Source: a virus
Virus record (IMG/VR): IMGVR_UViG_3300033979_000348
Location: 1 to 46,949 of that record
Strand: one strand, 5' to 3'
DNA: 46,949 nucleotides
In this document: one piece after another, positions 3,856-25,181 of the stretch
Layout: each line of letters starts with the position of its first letter
Numbering within the stretch: position 1 is the stretch's first letter
Notes under the pieces: model-generated
What the model saw: the letters and a program-made list of their open reading frames with translations, nothing else
Database searches by the model: none
Told to the model about the DNA's origin: nothing
Program-made: the position numbers and the translations under genes

Positions 3856-4604
3856 AGTTACTTCATGTAGTTTTTTCTACTAATAGAGTAGAATTTTTGA
3901 AAAAAACATTTGAAGCAAATAAAAAATTAGATTTTAGTGAATTGGATGTAGACCATTTATTCATTGATGATTATCCAAATGGACGGGATAATGAATCTTT
4001 AGCAGAGTTTGTAGTAGCAAATGGATATAATGAAATTATTTTTCATGAAGAAAATCAAGGCATTACAAAAACTTGGCAAGAACTTTTCAATTTGGTTAGA
4101 CAAAAAGATTATGATTATATCTTTCATCATGAAGATGATGTTGAAGTAATGTGTCCATTAAAGATAATGGATTTGATTGAACTTCTTGAACAAGACAAGA
4201 CCTTATCTCAAATACAATTGAAAAGAAATAATTGGTATGATTTTGAAAAAGAAGAAATAGGTCCAAAAGATGATGATGTAATTTTTAAACACTATAGATA
4301 TGAAAAGGCAACTCCATATTTTTGGATGCTGATGTCTTTATATCCTGCTTGGATTGCTAAAGAACCTATCTTTGAAGAGACAGGATTCAATCCATCAGAA
4401 TCAGTAATTGCAAATTACTTATTGAATAAGTATAATATTGGAGCAGGATTGTTGAAAACTGCTGAAGGTGGTATAATGGTAAATCATATTGGCGAATACT
4501 TTCATGGACAAAGAGTTTCTGAAGGAGAACCTGGATGGGATGGGTTTAAATATATTGATCCTAATGTAAAATATTGTTCTAAAACTGGTGTTATTTTGGG
4601 ATGA
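3852..4604 (+). CDS. GT-A-type glycosyltransferase
   Basis: A 250-residue enzyme with the layout of a GT2-like glycosyltransferase: an N-terminal Rossmann-like part (MKLLHVVFSTNRVEFLKKTF), then FHHEDDVEV with the DxD-type metal and nucleotide-sugar site (Glu94-Asp95-Asp96), then an acceptor-side half with HIGEYFHGQ. It should transfer a sugar from a nucleotide donor to an unknown acceptor in the host cytoplasm. It is short for the family but looks complete. It is the first gene of the sugar cassette and overlaps genes on both sides. Confidence 0.75.
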   Translation: MKLLHVVFSTNRVEFLKKTFEANKKLDFSELDVDHLFIDDYPNGRDNESLAEFVVANGYNEIIFHEENQGITKTWQELFNLVRQKDYDYIFHHEDDVEVMCPLKIMDLIELLEQDKTLSQIQLKRNNWYDFEKEEIGPKDDDVIFKHYRYEKATPYFWMLMSLYPAWIAKEPIFEETGFNPSESVIANYLLNKYNIGAGLLKTAEGGIMVNHIGEYFHGQRVSEGEPGWDGFKYIDPNVKYCSKTGVILG

Positions 4605-5167
4605 ATGTAAATCTTATAGTTGCAGATAACTTTTATAACAATCCTGATGATGTAAGAAACTTTGCATTATCACAGGAGTTTGCAGTAAGAGGAAACTATC
4701 CAGGATTGAGAACTAAATCATTTCTCAATGAAAGTAATAGAGAAGTCATAGATGCTCTTGTCTCTCATGCCTCTGGAGGTGTGACTGATTGGTTACTTGA
4801 TGAAAATGGCGATGGATATACAGGAGCATTTCAAATTTGTACATCAATGGATCGTACATGGATTCACTCTGACTATAATAATATGTGGGCAGGAGTATGC
4901 TATCTAACGCCAAATGCTCCATTAAGTGCTGGTACTGCATTGTATAGGCACAAAAAAACTGGGGAGAGAGCATCTATAGACAACATTGATCATGGTGAGG
5001 ATGGACATGATTATACAAAATGGGAAACTGTAGATAGGATAGGAAACATTTACAATAGATTAATTTTATATCCTGGTAAGTTATTTCACGCTTCTATAGA
5101 TTATTTTGGAAGTAATCTTCAAGATGGTAGATTATTTCAAACATTTTTTTTCAATACAAGGTACTGA
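4601..5167 (+). CDS. Fe(II)/2-oxoglutarate oxygenase-like protein, copy 1
   Basis: A 188-residue protein with the jelly-roll metal triad pattern: His89-x-Asp91 (WIHSDY), distal His163 (LFHAS) and Arg177 (DGRLFQTFFF), the last placed to bind 2-oxoglutarate. Members of this superfamily hydroxylate side chains, sugars or bases using iron and oxygen. It resembles DUF6445-type proteins seen in phages and marine bacteria (from memory). It lies between a glycosyltransferase and the mutase and is paralogous to the protein at 7347-7931 (shared WAGxxYLTPNAP segment), which points to a role in the same cassette. The substrate is unknown. Confidence 0.65.
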   Translation: MNVNLIVADNFYNNPDDVRNFALSQEFAVRGNYPGLRTKSFLNESNREVIDALVSHASGGVTDWLLDENGDGYTGAFQICTSMDRTWIHSDYNNMWAGVCYLTPNAPLSAGTALYRHKKTGERASIDNIDHGEDGHDYTKWETVDRIGNIYNRLILYPGKLFHASIDYFGSNLQDGRLFQTFFFNTRY

Positions 5168-5169
5168 TA

Positions 5170-6201
5170 ATGTCATTAGCATATGTGATTGGTTCTGGAA
5201 CTGCTGGTGCTACATCAGCAAGGATACTCAAAGATAATGGATGGGACGTAGAGGTCTTTGAAACCAGAGAATATCTTTCTGGCAATTGTTATGACTATGT
5301 TGATGAAAAAACAGGATGTGTAATTCATGCACATGGACCTCATGCTATCCATACAGATAATGATCGTGTTTGGGATTGGTTGAATCAATTTGCAGTTTTC
5401 AATAATTTTTCTGTTGAAGTATGGGCAAACACAAGTCTTGGAAAAATTCCTATTCCATATAATGACAACTCAGATAAAATTATTGGCAGAAGATTATCTG
5501 ACACTGAAATTAAGGAATTAGTATTCAGAGATTATTCTGAAAAAATGTGGGGAGTTAAGTTAGAGGAACTTCCTATGGGCATTTTGAATAGACTTCCTAT
5601 AAGAAAAAAAGGTTCTAATGGGTCTTTCACTCAACAAAAGTATCAAGGTCTACCTAAGAATGGATTTGTGGACATGTTCAAGAATATCTTTGATGATATT
5701 CCAGTTCATTTAAATGTATCAAAAGATGAATGGCGAACACTCAAAGACAAATGTGACTTGTTAGTTTTTACTGGAAAGGTTGATAATTATTTTGATTATC
5801 AGTATGGAAAGTTATCTTATAGGTCATTGAACTTTGAACATGTCTATTGTCCTAAGACAGTGTATATCCAACTTAATGAATGCAACAGAAATAATGAATG
5901 GAATCGTGCTATTGACCACTCTTATTGGTACAATCAAGATGTTGAAACTACAGTAGTTACAAGAGAATATCCAGTAGAACATATTGAAGGATTGAATAAT
6001 CCATATTATCCTATGATTTTTGGAAAGTATCTGGAACAGTTTGAACAATATAAACCATTAATGCAAGCAGAAAAAAATACAATTTTTGTTGGAAGAACTG
6101 CTACTTACAAATACTTGACTATAGATCAGACTATAGCAAGAACAGCAAACAAACTCAAAAGAATGGGATTTGTTGATAGAATACTTACACCTGAATTATG
6201 A
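5170..6201 (+). CDS. glf: UDP-galactopyranose mutase
   Basis: A 343-residue flavoenzyme that converts UDP-galactopyranose to UDP-galactofuranose. Evidence: an N-terminal FAD-binding GSGTAGA (residues 8-14), Glu31 ending the second strand, SGNCYDY, the HGPHAIHT segment, SEKMWG, GSNGSFTQQKYQGLPKNGF in the middle, and GRTATYKYLTIDQTIARTA at the C-terminus. It is slightly shorter than most bacterial enzymes (about 360-380) but has both ends. The dinucleotide motif has Thr where Phe is usual (GxGTAG). Galactofuranose is a surface-glycan sugar, so this gene explains the glycosyltransferases around it. Confidence 0.93.
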   Translation: MSLAYVIGSGTAGATSARILKDNGWDVEVFETREYLSGNCYDYVDEKTGCVIHAHGPHAIHTDNDRVWDWLNQFAVFNNFSVEVWANTSLGKIPIPYNDNSDKIIGRRLSDTEIKELVFRDYSEKMWGVKLEELPMGILNRLPIRKKGSNGSFTQQKYQGLPKNGFVDMFKNIFDDIPVHLNVSKDEWRTLKDKCDLLVFTGKVDNYFDYQYGKLSYRSLNFEHVYCPKTVYIQLNECNRNNEWNRAIDHSYWYNQDVETTVVTREYPVEHIEGLNNPYYPMIFGKYLEQFEQYKPLMQAEKNTIFVGRTATYKYLTIDQTIARTANKLKRMGFVDRILTPEL

Positions 6202-20565: not shown

Positions 20566-21297
20566 ATGCCTTTACCTACAGTTGCAACTCCAACCTATGA
20601 GTTGACATTACCATCAAACAAAAAGACTATTAAGTACAGACCTTTCTTAGTCAAGGAAGAAAAGATTCTTATCTTGGCTATGGAAAGTGGTAATTCAAAA
20701 GATATTACTAATGCAGTTAAGAATACATTGAAAGATTGTATTTTAACCAGAGGCATTAAGATTGATTCTCTTCCAAGTTTTGATATTGAGTATCTGTTTT
20801 TAAATATTAGAGCAAAGTCAGTTGGAGAATCAGTAGAATTAATCATCACCTGTCCAGATGATAATGAAACACGTGTAGATGTTACTGTTAATATTGATGA
20901 GATTGAAGTTGTAATTCCAGAAAATCATACATCTGAAATTAAAGTTGATGATAGTATTACAGTTAAGATGAAGTATCCATCACTTCAAGAGTTTATTGAT
21001 AATAATTTTGATTTCTCTGGACAAACTGGAAGTAAAGAAACTATTGACAAATCATTTGATATTGTTGCATCTTGTGTGGATATGGTTTATACCAAAGATG
21101 AATCTTGGTCTGCTGCTGATGTTACTAAGAAAGAATTGATTGAATGGTTACAGACATTTGATTCAAATCAATTCAAAGGTATTGAAGAGTTCTTTGATAC
21201 TATGCCTAAACTTTCTCACACATTAACAGTTAAGAATCCAAACACTGGCGTTGAGAATGAAATTGTATTGGAGGGACTCTCAAGTTTTTTCGGATAG
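20566..21297 (+). CDS. gp26: Baseplate hub subunit gp26
   Basis: A 243-residue protein matching the T4 gp26 baseplate family: an N-terminal MPLPTVATPTYELTLPSNKK, then YRPFLVKEEKILILAMESG, CILTRGIKIDSLPSFDIEYL, FLNIRAKSVGE and a helical C-terminal half. In T4 gp26 takes part in hub assembly. It ends with AGT TTT TTC GGA TAG, which contains a classic -1 slip site, so part of the product is probably extended into the next frame. It is larger than T4 gp26 (208). Confidence 0.85.
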   Translation: MPLPTVATPTYELTLPSNKKTIKYRPFLVKEEKILILAMESGNSKDITNAVKNTLKDCILTRGIKIDSLPSFDIEYLFLNIRAKSVGESVELIITCPDDNETRVDVTVNIDEIEVVIPENHTSEIKVDDSITVKMKYPSLQEFIDNNFDFSGQTGSKETIDKSFDIVASCVDMVYTKDESWSAADVTKKELIEWLQTFDSNQFKGIEEFFDTMPKLSHTLTVKNPNTGVENEIVLEGLSSFFG

Positions 21298-21300
21298 TCC
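21270..21300 (+). promoter_or_regulatory. Programmed -1 frameshift signal
   Basis: The slip heptamer T TTT TTC (21285-21291) is in the gene 26 frame, two codons before its stop. GGAGGG (21270-21275) lies nine bases upstream, the position of the stimulating Shine-Dalgarno-like element of dnaX. GGACT (21274-21278) can pair with AGTCC (21296-21300) around the slip site. After slipping, the -1 frame stays open for 60 codons. Confidence 0.65.
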
Positions 21301-21473
21301 TTAGTCATGAAGATTTGGAGTCTTATTATAGAGTTAATTTTGCCTTGATGCAGTATCATAAATACTCTTTGACTGAGATTGAAAATATGATGCCGTGGGA
21401 ACGTGAAATCTACTTAACTCTTTTAGAAAATCATATCAAAGAAGAAGAAGAAAAAGCATCAAGAGTAAAATAA
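21291..21473 (+). CDS. gp51-like hub assembly chaperone domain, -1 frame extension of gene 26
   Basis: The -1 frame continues from the slip site with HEDLESYYRVNFALMQYHKY and SLTEIENMMPWEREIYLTLL, then an acidic/basic helix ending at 21473. Fusion with gp26 gives about 302 residues. The WEREIY and leucine-rich helix resemble the T part of phage tail chaperones (lambda G/GT). Free initiation is possible only at an ATG at 21348 (41 residues), without a good ribosome site. It lies directly before two large tail-hub genes, the usual place for a tail chaperone. I call it gp51-like by position and pattern. Confidence 0.6.
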   Translation, partial: RIVLSHEDLESYYRVNFALMQYHKYSLTEIENMMPWEREIYLTLLENHIKEEEEKASRVK

Positions 21474-23192
21474 ATGACTCCAGGAGATTTTGGATTTAAA
21501 GATAGAGTATCTAGATTTATTTCAGGAGCAAGTTCCAGAAGTAAATTTGGATTCTCTGCTACGCCAAAACTCACAAGAATTGCTGGGATGTTTCCAAAAA
21601 GACAAGTCCCTCAACAAATTGTATCTGGGTCTTCTGAACAAACAGATCCAGAAATTGGAGCGCCAAAAAGAGTTATTTCTTCTTTAGGAAGATTGACTTT
21701 AGACCTTGAGATTGTCAACAATAATCTTGATAGAATTGCATCAATTATTCTTCAAGATTATAAAGAAACTCAAGATACAAATAAAAAAGAAATAGAAGAT
21801 TTTAGAAAAAGAGTTGCAAATAGAGGTAGATTATTTGGTAAGAAAGAGTTAGGAGATAAGAAATCTGATGTTCTTGGTGCAGTTAAAAAATATGTAGGGT
21901 CATTCTTTAGTGGTGCTGGAGGTGCTATCAGAGCACTCTCTATGTTTAATTTGATGCAGGGGATTTTATCTGGAGACCCATCTAAAATTATTGGACCACT
22001 TCTTGGAATAGGATTAACATATCTTCCTGCTATTGGTGCTGGAATTGCTGGTGCAGTAGCAACATCTTTGGTTGGGAAGTTATTTGGAGGTGGGGCAGCA
22101 ACAAGAGCAGCAGCATCAGCAGCTCCTGCAGCAGCTGGAGCAGGGGGAGCACTTGGAAGATTGGGTAAATTTGGTGGAAGAGCTGCACTTGTTGGTGGAG
22201 GAATTGCATTAGCAAGTAGTATCTTCAATAGACCACAAGAAGATCAATCACAACAAAGATTAGAAGAACTTACACAACAACAAAAAGCATCAGTAGAACC
22301 TGGAAATTTAGTTCCAATTCCACAAGATGATTTGAGGAGATTCGAAAAATTAAACAAAAAATTTGAAGCAGCACTTGACTTTTTATTAGGCAAACAAAAA
22401 GAACAAGACAGGCAACCTCAAAAAACAGGTGGGAGAGGAGGTGGAGGAGGTGGGGGTGCTCCTCCCCCTCCTGGTCAAATTATGTCAGGACCTGCCCCTG
22501 GAGAAATTAATGCTTTGATGTCAGCAATTTCTGGAGCAGAAGGTGGATTAGAATCAGTTAATAAAATAGGTCCTATGCCTGGTTTGTCTCAAATGACTAT
22601 TGATGAAGCCATATCAAAAGTTGAATCATTCAGAGCACAAGGTAAAACCTCAGGGGCTATGGGCAACATGCAGCAAATGTCTTATTACTTGAGAGAAAGA
22701 GCTATAGCAGCAGGGTTAGATCCATCAACAGCATTGTATAATCAAGAAAATCAATACAAAATTAATAGAGCATATCTTGCCGGTCTTTTTTCTGGAGGAG
22801 AACAGGAAATAGTTAATTTAATTAGGTCAGGTAAAATCAATGAAGTAGTGAATAAATTAAAAGGAGTTTGGCCATCTCTTCCTGGAGGATCTCAAGAAAA
22901 TGTTCATACATCAGATTTTTATAGAAGATTTCAAACTTTCTTAGGGCAAATATCATCTCCTGGAACTGTAACACCACCAATAAGTCCTGTTGCACCAGCA
23001 CCAAGATCTGCAGCAACTGCTGCTCCAAGAGCACCACAAACACAAGTTACAGTTCTTCCTTTACCAACTCAACAACAATCTTCCCAAGCATCTGCAGTTT
23101 CTGGAGGAAATGATACTGTTCCATCAATAGATACTACTTATCCTGAAAACTTCTTGGCTTTGTATTCTAAACTAATCTATCAGATTGTTTGA
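21474..23192 (+). CDS. Large tail-hub or tape-measure-like protein with lysozyme-like domain
   Basis: A 572-residue protein. Residues 1-140 are basic and helical; about 140-250 is a long Ala/Gly hydrophobic stretch after KKYVGSFF, as in tape-measure proteins; about 320-345 is a Gly/Pro linker. From about 345 to 500 there is a lysozyme-like domain (ISGAEGGLESVNK with probable catalytic Glu356, AMGNMQQMSYYLRERA). The C-terminal 70 residues are Pro/Gln/Ser-rich. It could cleave peptidoglycan when the tail penetrates. It follows the putative tail chaperone directly, as a tape-measure gene should. The catalytic assignment is tentative. Confidence 0.6.
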   Translation: MTPGDFGFKDRVSRFISGASSRSKFGFSATPKLTRIAGMFPKRQVPQQIVSGSSEQTDPEIGAPKRVISSLGRLTLDLEIVNNNLDRIASIILQDYKETQDTNKKEIEDFRKRVANRGRLFGKKELGDKKSDVLGAVKKYVGSFFSGAGGAIRALSMFNLMQGILSGDPSKIIGPLLGIGLTYLPAIGAGIAGAVATSLVGKLFGGGAATRAAASAAPAAAGAGGALGRLGKFGGRAALVGGGIALASSIFNRPQEDQSQQRLEELTQQQKASVEPGNLVPIPQDDLRRFEKLNKKFEAALDFLLGKQKEQDRQPQKTGGRGGGGGGGAPPPPGQIMSGPAPGEINALMSAISGAEGGLESVNKIGPMPGLSQMTIDEAISKVESFRAQGKTSGAMGNMQQMSYYLRERAIAAGLDPSTALYNQENQYKINRAYLAGLFSGGEQEIVNLIRSGKINEVVNKLKGVWPSLPGGSQENVHTSDFYRRFQTFLGQISSPGTVTPPISPVAPAPRSAATAAPRAPQTQVTVLPLPTQQQSSQASAVSGGNDTVPSIDTTYPENFLALYSKLIYQIV

Positions 23193-23195
23193 TAA

Positions 23196-25181
23196 ATGGA
23201 CCCAACATTACTTCTTAACAGACCAGTTGTAAAACCAAGAATAGTAGCAAAGATTACGAAGTTTAATAATCTTGTTGAGGTTTCTACTGAAGCTAGAAAG
23301 TCTTCTACTAAACTTAGAAAGGTTTTTGAAAAGGGAAGTTACCAAAAGAAAACCCAACTTTCAGTATTAAACAGATATAAAAAACGATTAGAAACTATTC
23401 AGAAACAAAATGATAGATCATTTCGTAAAAAACAAAGAGTAAAAGTTAAGTTACCAGACATTAAAAAGTATGTTGGAAACTTTTTTACGCCAGGATCTGC
23501 TGATGATCCTCTCAAAGCAATAGGAGCACTTGCAGCATTTAAAGCAGTTCAAAAAGGTTCTAAAGGTGATTGGGGTGGGGCATTAGCTTCTGGTTTAGTT
23601 GCAGCAGGATTAACTCTTGGACCTTCACTGTTGGGATTTGGTGCTGGTGCTTTGATGGGTAGAGGGGGAAGAGGAGGAGGTGTTGGTCCTGAAGTAGGAG
23701 TTACTCCTCCCAAACCATTAAAACCAGGGTCTATAAGTAGATTAAATGCATCACAAGCAAGATTCATTCAAGGTAGTGCAAATATTGGTGATAGGGCAAG
23801 ATTAATTCGTAGAGGAACTATTTCTCCTACAGGGGCATTTTCTCGTGGTGGTCCAGAGCAAATGGCAAAGTATGGGGCAGACACCTCAAAAGTTGGAAAA
23901 GCATTTGGTAGATTTGGTAAAGCAATTATTCCAGGCGTTGGTGCTGCAGTTGGGGCTATTGATGCAGGATTGAGAACAAGTGAAGGTGATTACACAGGAG
24001 CTAAAATAGCAGGAACATCAGCAACTTTAGATGCACTTGCTGCTGCATCTGCTGCTACTGGAATTGGATTGCCAGTTGCTGGATTACTTTCTATTGCATC
24101 ATTTGCATTAGATGTAACTAATCTTGTTCGTGATTTAAGTGGCTCAAGTGAAAAAGAAGCACTGGCAAATAAATCTCAGCAAAATAGGTTAAAACAACAA
24201 ACAGAAAAACAAAAACAAGCAGTTGAGGGTAAGAAGGAAGAAGGTGGAGCACTTACCTTTAGAAAAACTTTGAATGGTTATGAAAAGGCAGTTAATAAAT
24301 TTGAAGAATTTGTTAAAGGATTTAAAGGTGGTATGGGAATGGGTGGGGAACAGTCTGGAGTTATTGAAACTGGAAATAGAGGATTAACTACTGGTGAATC
24401 CCTTCAAGATTTAGAAGCAACTGGAGGAGAAGTTCCAGGAAGACCAGATTCTGCTTATGGCCCAAGAGGAGGAAGACTACACAAGGGGAACGATTATAAT
24501 AGATCAGTTGGCACTCCAATCAGTATCATACAACCAGGAACTGTAACTGTTGCAGATATGAATTATGACCCCAGTGGATGGGGAGCAGTAGTTGAGATTA
24601 GACATCAAGATGGGTCTATAAGTAGGTATGCACACCTAAGTCAAATAAATGTTGCAGCAGGAACTCAAGTTTCTCCTGGACAAGTAATAGGAAAAGTTGG
24701 TGGTGCTCCTGGTGCTCCAGGATCTGGAAACTCTACAGGAGCGCATTTGCATTTTGAATATGAAAATGGTTCAGGAAGAATTGATCCAACTGCAATAGCA
24801 CCAAGAATTTTTAGATTTGGTGGCGATGTAAGAGTTAAGCAACAATCAACACAACCACAACCTCCTGGTTCCAGACCAAGCACTGCAGCACAATTGAGAG
24901 CAATTGGACAATCTGATGCTGCTTCACTATTAGAAAGACAACAACCTCCTGCTCCACGTAGACCTCCTTCAATTACACCTCCACCACGAACACCAAGACC
25001 TGTTGGAAGTTTTCTTCCATATCAACAAGGAAGTCAACAACAAGTCACGGCATTTTATCCTGTGTCACAACCACAACAACAACCTATGCCATCTGAAGAT
25101 GTTCCTATGATGATGACAGGTCCATCAGAGCAACAGTTGTTAAATAGTTTCTATAAGAGAGTCCTTCTTAATACTGTATAG
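23196..25181 (+). CDS. Large tail-hub protein with M23 (LytM) peptidase domain
   Basis: A 661-residue protein. Residues 1-85 are basic and coiled-coil-like; after KKYVGNFF comes an Ala/Gly hydrophobic stretch (about 105-155), as in the preceding gene, so the two are probably paralogues. Residues about 405-545 are an M23 zinc endopeptidase: His429-x3-Asp433 (LHKGNDY), YAHLSQINVAAGTQV, and His517/His519 in GAHLHFEY. All metal and catalytic residues are present. The C-terminal 110 residues are Pro/Gln-rich. It should cut peptide cross-links in the host wall during DNA injection. Confidence 0.8.
   Translation: MDPTLLLNRPVVKPRIVAKITKFNNLVEVSTEARKSSTKLRKVFEKGSYQKKTQLSVLNRYKKRLETIQKQNDRSFRKKQRVKVKLPDIKKYVGNFFTPGSADDPLKAIGALAAFKAVQKGSKGDWGGALASGLVAAGLTLGPSLLGFGAGALMGRGGRGGGVGPEVGVTPPKPLKPGSISRLNASQARFIQGSANIGDRARLIRRGTISPTGAFSRGGPEQMAKYGADTSKVGKAFGRFGKAIIPGVGAAVGAIDAGLRTSEGDYTGAKIAGTSATLDALAAASAATGIGLPVAGLLSIASFALDVTNLVRDLSGSSEKEALANKSQQNRLKQQTEKQKQAVEGKKEEGGALTFRKTLNGYEKAVNKFEEFVKGFKGGMGMGGEQSGVIETGNRGLTTGESLQDLEATGGEVPGRPDSAYGPRGGRLHKGNDYNRSVGTPISIIQPGTVTVADMNYDPSGWGAVVEIRHQDGSISRYAHLSQINVAAGTQVSPGQVIGKVGGAPGAPGSGNSTGAHLHFEYENGSGRIDPTAIAPRIFRFGGDVRVKQQSTQPQPPGSRPSTAAQLRAIGQSDAASLLERQQPPAPRRPPSITPPPRTPRPVGSFLPYQQGSQQQVTAFYPVSQPQQQPMPSEDVPMMMTGPSEQQLLNSFYKRVLLNTV

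Follow-up and report, generated by a model that had tools for sequence, protein, structure and literature searches.

A −1 programmed frameshift very probably joins gp26 to a gp51-like domain in a T4-like cyanophage

In phage lambda, a single gene located between the tail tube gene and the tail-length gene yields a short and a long protein, gpG and gpGT, through a −1 shift close to its 3′ end; the slip sequence is G GGA AAG. As to T4 itself, the 2022 abstract of Vladimirov, Gautam and Davidson is said to name genes 26 and 51. Passages in two later papers (PMC10885494, PMC12846349) attribute to this work (Vladimirov et al., Virology 2022, 566:9–15) poly-T −1 frameshift signals in the genes for the short form of the tail assembly chaperone (TAC), TAC-N, of T4-like phages, and in some T4-like phages, according to the relevant passage of PMC10885494, there are instead two genes, a short one and a fused long one. 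In the Pakpunavirus/Vandenendeviridae, as described for phage Adele, the TAC is likewise made by a −1 shift with a conserved poly-T at the 3′ end of TAC-N, which annotation routinely misses (PMC12846349). Our literature search on cyanophage frameshifts returned no paper specific to gp26/51.

The locus considered here lies in a stretch of DNA of 46,949 nucleotides from a T4-like cyanophage (IMG/VR record IMGVR_UViG_3300033979_000348), the whole of which is called the window below. The original prediction held that T4-like phages are not usually described as using a frameshift device. This was overtaken by the 2022 report, at least as it is conveyed in PMC10885494 and PMC12846349, and the gene 26 frameshift thus belongs to a system already described and is not a new device; with the mechanism already published, the gain is modest. 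As with lambda gpG/gpGT, a short and a long form would come from one gene by a −1 shift, but the slip sequences differ, sequence homology is not seen and the window phage is contractile-tailed. The TAC of phage Adele shares the −1 shift and the poly-T at the end of TAC-N with the window, whereas it belongs to another phage family and its motif is given as GTTTTT. The elements of the locus are the following.

20566–21297, plus strand: gene 26, short chaperone form TAC-N, 243 aa (PF12322 T4_baseplate, E 2.1e-75; PHROG_150, E 1e-81)
21285–21291, plus strand: T TTT TTC, the slippery heptamer, separated from the TAG by a single sense codon and kept as NNT TTT TTN in 240/242 distinct relatives
21295–21297, plus strand: 0-frame stop TAG, which terminates the short form
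21291–21473, plus strand: −1 frame C-terminal domain, gp51-like TAC-C, 60 aa followed by TAA (21471–21473) (PHROG_634 'baseplate hub assembly catalyst', E 1.8e-28)
20566–21473, plus strand: predicted frameshift product TAC-NC, 242 + 60 = 302 aa, with the junction ...SFF/RIVLSHEDL..., deduced from the frames; domain order as in T4 gp51

The 0 frame of gene 26 ends AGT (from 21283) TTT TTC (to 21291) GGA TAG, exactly as had been claimed, and its product matches T4 gp26 in a profile comparison over 200 columns (E 1.1e-14). The window's 12,923 codons contain 58 in-frame heptamers of the XXXYYYZ type; a −1 frame of at least 40 codons follows just two of them, the gene 26 site and one in a DUF6445 gene.

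The best explanation for this arrangement, and a very probable one on the strength of the sequences, is −1 programmed frameshifting at gene 26, by which the long TAC-NC would be made from the gp26 (TAC-N) frame. Most ribosomes would halt at the TAG and release the short form, while a fraction would slip by −1 at T TTT TTC, where both Phe tRNAs would shift their pairing from TTT TTC to TTT TTT, and would go on to translate 60 further codons to give the long form, the C-terminal domain of which would be the "gp51" of the databases. If lambda G/GT is a guide, the tape measure protein would be coated by the short form, and the long form would bring in the tail tube subunits or the hub. We infer the slippage itself and its rate from the frames, conservation and homology, and the chaperone role of the gene 26 products is predicted from analogy and family naming. 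An AlphaFold (AF2) model of gp26 (pLDDT 86.8) has strong matches to viral gp26-type models. A fold search of the PDB with this model gave no significant match, the HK97 chaperone 2ob9 being among the top matches at insignificant values (E 1.7–1.9, probability 0.16–0.47), and a sequence search of the PDB gave nothing useful.

The −1 frame is open over the 60 codons originally claimed for it, and the proposed identity as a gp51-like domain is confirmed: besides its match to PHROG_634, hhalign aligns it with residues 205–245 of T4 gp51 (E 4.8e-6), the profile comparison that the original prediction had suggested, and PHROG_634 itself matches residues 147–246 of the same protein. The domain also matches the C-terminal part of PHROG_150 (last 49 positions, E 1.8e-8), so that some PHROG_150 members have both parts in one frame, and matches to it occur in 644 phage records. 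It was further claimed to have no good start of its own, and indeed the earliest candidate in the −1 frame of the window is a TTG at 21315, within the conserved domain. Among 24 loci of the window's freshwater clade, ATG, GTG and TTG are absent from the first 16 codons past the slip site. Their divergence per site is 0.174 at the first, 0.072 at the second and 0.278 at the third position of the −1 codons, which is the pattern of a translated frame, and purifying selection acts on the extension.

T4 offers an instructive comparison. Its genes 26 and 51 are two separate genes in divergent orientation, for which no frameshift is needed, and T4 gene 26 reads AAA GAG TTC TTT GAG, with the heptamer absent. 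The kinship of gp26 and gp51 was hardly visible pairwise (BLASTP of gp26 against T4 gp51 was not significant and hhalign of the same pair weak), and it was the family models that settled the question: T4 gp26 consists of PF12322 alone, whereas T4 gp51 consists of a full PF12322 plus the C-terminal domain seen here in the −1 frame. T4 thus has a second gene for the in-frame product that the window phage appears to obtain by frameshifting.

Relatives were drawn from viral contigs and annotated phage records, giving 242 distinct loci with a usable junction. In 240 of them NNT TTT TTN is present in phase, across many T4-like lineages including the Kyanoviridae, the Straboviridae (PX29, Aeromonas 65, nt-1, LPCS28), pf16, Mendera and Rhizobium phages. 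The slip site that was to be looked for at the 26/51 junction of other cyanomyoviruses is thus found almost throughout these relatives. Within the heptamer, the second codon is always TTT; the first codon varies in its amino acid (Ser, Asp, Asn, Ala, Arg) and always has T as its third base; at the last position, 208 have C, 22 A, 9 T and one G. A Phe-to-Leu change in the P-HM2 clade yields TTA, which is slippery still. We also scanned codon conservation over 121 clusters at 85% nucleotide identity and 146 scored gp26 columns. The three codons of the heptamer rank 1st, 3rd and 5th of the 146 columns in excess codon identity, and the Glu-Gly-Leu codons directly upstream show zero excess. Against background codon use in 114 clusters, with heptamer-less clusters excluded and relatedness making the figures optimistic, the log10 P is −21.5 for a first codon ending in T throughout and −16.3 for TTT throughout at the second. 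The same scan picked out two Leu columns close to the start of gp26 (columns 10 and 22 of the alignment; window 20566–20605) that are unusually codon-conserved, with TTA in 96/119 and TTG in 78/115 clusters, respectively, perhaps a start-region signal.

The second heptamer of the window provides a control. Near its end, the DUF6445 gene (4601–5167) encodes a Thr-Phe-Phe-Phe stretch that contains T TTT TTC and leads into a long −1 frame. In relatives this stretch is written in 25 different codings and the heptamer is silently lost; as a candidate for a second frameshift site it was rejected and attributed to chance. The original prediction would have been refuted by silent breakage of the gene 26 heptamer among relatives; no such breakage is seen, while the control site does break. 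The −1 frame behind the DUF6445 heptamer is a UDP-galactopyranose mutase-like gene (5170–6201), and the region has the look of a glycan-synthesis cluster.

Several relatives depart from the common arrangement. Two distant ones, Vibrio phages D528 (L095) and Kuja (L097), have CTT TTC or CTT TTT instead of a proper heptamer and retain the −1 extension, D528 with an overlapping TAATG. In Pelagibacter phage Mosig (L101, ~1490–1530) the 0-frame stop comes 8 codons past the heptamer, where one codon or none is usual. S-SCSM1 (L102, 1490–1680) has the heptamer with the gp51-like domain in the +1 frame, possibly with an ATG of its own; this may reflect either an error in the sequence or a genuine change to separate initiation.

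Could the downstream domain be an independent small gene, gp51, whose translation begins by coupled re-initiation at or just after the gp26 stop, without any fusion to gp26? A −1-frame ATG does lie 5 nt past the stop in 78 scored loci and 2 nt past it in 26, and GenBank annotates such gp51 starts in P-SSM2 and S-SKS1. However, no start precedes the conserved region in the window, 97 loci lack an ATG anywhere within 25 nt of the stop, and the heptamer is retained whether an ATG is present or not. Moreover, the ATG annotated in GenBank as the gp51 start in the P-SSM2 clade is contained in the stem of a hairpin (see below), and annotated short fragments of the domain begin in its middle, as in P-HM2 with 31 codons including the stop. 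We therefore regard re-initiation without fusion as improbable.

Slippage of the polymerase on the T run, giving mRNAs with an altered number of U residues from which the fusion would be read by standard decoding, seems slightly less probable still. The run is six T long in the window (21285–21290) and reaches eight in HTVC008M-like phages, but six is short for the polymerase by what is generally known of bacterial slippage sites. Conservation moreover tracks the codon phase NNT TTT TTN, including the third base of the preceding codon while its amino acid is free, and the downstream hairpins found in relatives suit ribosomal slippage. Only the additional frame change in S-SCSM1 speaks for a sequencing or assembly error or for the decayed remnant of a gene 51; the identical frame relation in more than 230 distinct contigs and isolates, together with the selection on the extension, makes the chance of this negligible, and the comparative data already refute it. 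Ribosomal −1 frameshifting on the heptamer is thus the explanation retained, and the core of the original prediction, a −1 shift fusing gp26 to a gp51-like domain in the manner of lambda G/GT, is well supported by the unbroken heptamer and the confirmed identity of the extension. Weighing against it are the ATG just past the stop in some relatives, the divergent arrangements of S-SCSM1 and the two Vibrio phages, the insignificant fold match to 2ob9 and, in the window's own clade, a weak downstream hairpin and a patchy SD-like element.

Two elements of the window were considered as possible stimulators of the shift.

21270–21275, plus strand: SD-like GGAGGG, 9 nt 5′ of the heptamer, possible stimulator, enriched among relatives and not strictly conserved
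21300–21318, plus strand: weak candidate hairpin CTTAGTC-ATGAA-GATTTGG, 6/7 pairs including G-U, well formed in some close relatives only

The SD-like motif lies exactly at the distance originally claimed; its conservation is another matter. GAGG is present at the slip-site Glu-Gly in 64/119 clusters versus 13/49 at Glu-Gly elsewhere (Fisher p 0.0013, relatedness uncorrected), and its distribution is patchy, with 16/29 clusters in the window's clade, 16/17 in that of P-SSM2 and 3/24 in the P-HM2 core. The codons that make it up, GAG/GAA and GGN, vary freely. The 5-bp pairing said to span the slip site, GGACT/AGTCC, can indeed form. It was rejected as a conserved element and looks like chance because the two upstream codons involved vary silently.

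For the hairpins, the 50 nt past the slip site were folded and compared with random synonymous recodings that preserve the −1 protein. The P-SSM2 clade has a mean fold-energy z of −4.7 (17/17 within the lowest 5%) and the P-HM2 set one of −2.9, against about −0.2 in the internal controls; diverse named phages have −1.8; the −0.85 of the window's clade is near its control of −0.49, internal gp26 controls ranging from −0.2 to −0.9. The hairpins lie 3–8 nt past the heptamer, and their registers and sequences differ among lineages. In P-SSM2-like loci (L105–L184; e.g. L184:2208–2256) an 11-bp hairpin, AAGTATGGCTC...GAGTCATACT, starts 5 nt past the slip site, and P-HM2-like loci (L185–L230), in which the SD-like element is mostly absent, have a compact hairpin GCCCTC-TTCCAT-GAGGGC, or variants of it, 5–6 nt past the heptamer. 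Of the features of a dnaX-type cassette, the downstream hairpin is therefore strong in the P-SSM2 clade and the P-HM2 set and weak in the window's clade. With at best a weak hairpin and a patchy SD-like element, the window probably depends on the heptamer, possibly with some help from the SD-like motif. We tentatively suggest that the heptamer could have stayed fixed throughout the T4-like phages while its stimulators were replaced from lineage to lineage, each of which may have re-tuned its short-to-long ratio; if true, the chaperone ratio would be adjusted lineage by lineage, perhaps to the translation of the host or to the length of the tail. In any case, the relatives offer naturally occurring variants of the slip site whose stimulators differ.

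Annotation of the domain has suffered accordingly. It is missed by GenBank in S-CAM1, ACG-2014e, DSL-LC03, LPCS28 and S-PRM1, other records let a small gene begin at a nearby ATG or, in P-HM2, in mid-domain, and a joined coding sequence for gp26/gp51 is found in none of the annotated T4-like records examined. The 'gp51' entries of cyanophages are hence mostly fragments with guessed starts, or missing. Cyanophage gp51 has been described as having ~20% of the usual length, with the first ~200 residues absent (Sullivan 2010, PMC3037559); it would be short because these residues come from gp26 via the frameshift.

Two further genes follow the −1 frame directly.

21474–23192, plus strand: first downstream gene, 572 aa, candidate tape measure on positional grounds only
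23196–25181, plus strand: second downstream gene, 661 aa, M23 peptidase domain (PF01551, E 6.5e-22)

Both had been called tape-measure-like. Their position agrees with this and makes it plausible, whereas the first has no detectable similarity to T4 gp29. The M23 region of the second has PHROG matches to peptidase, endolysin and tape-measure families, and M23 domains occur in some tape measures; its product is a candidate for either a tape-measure-like protein or a tail-associated peptidase.
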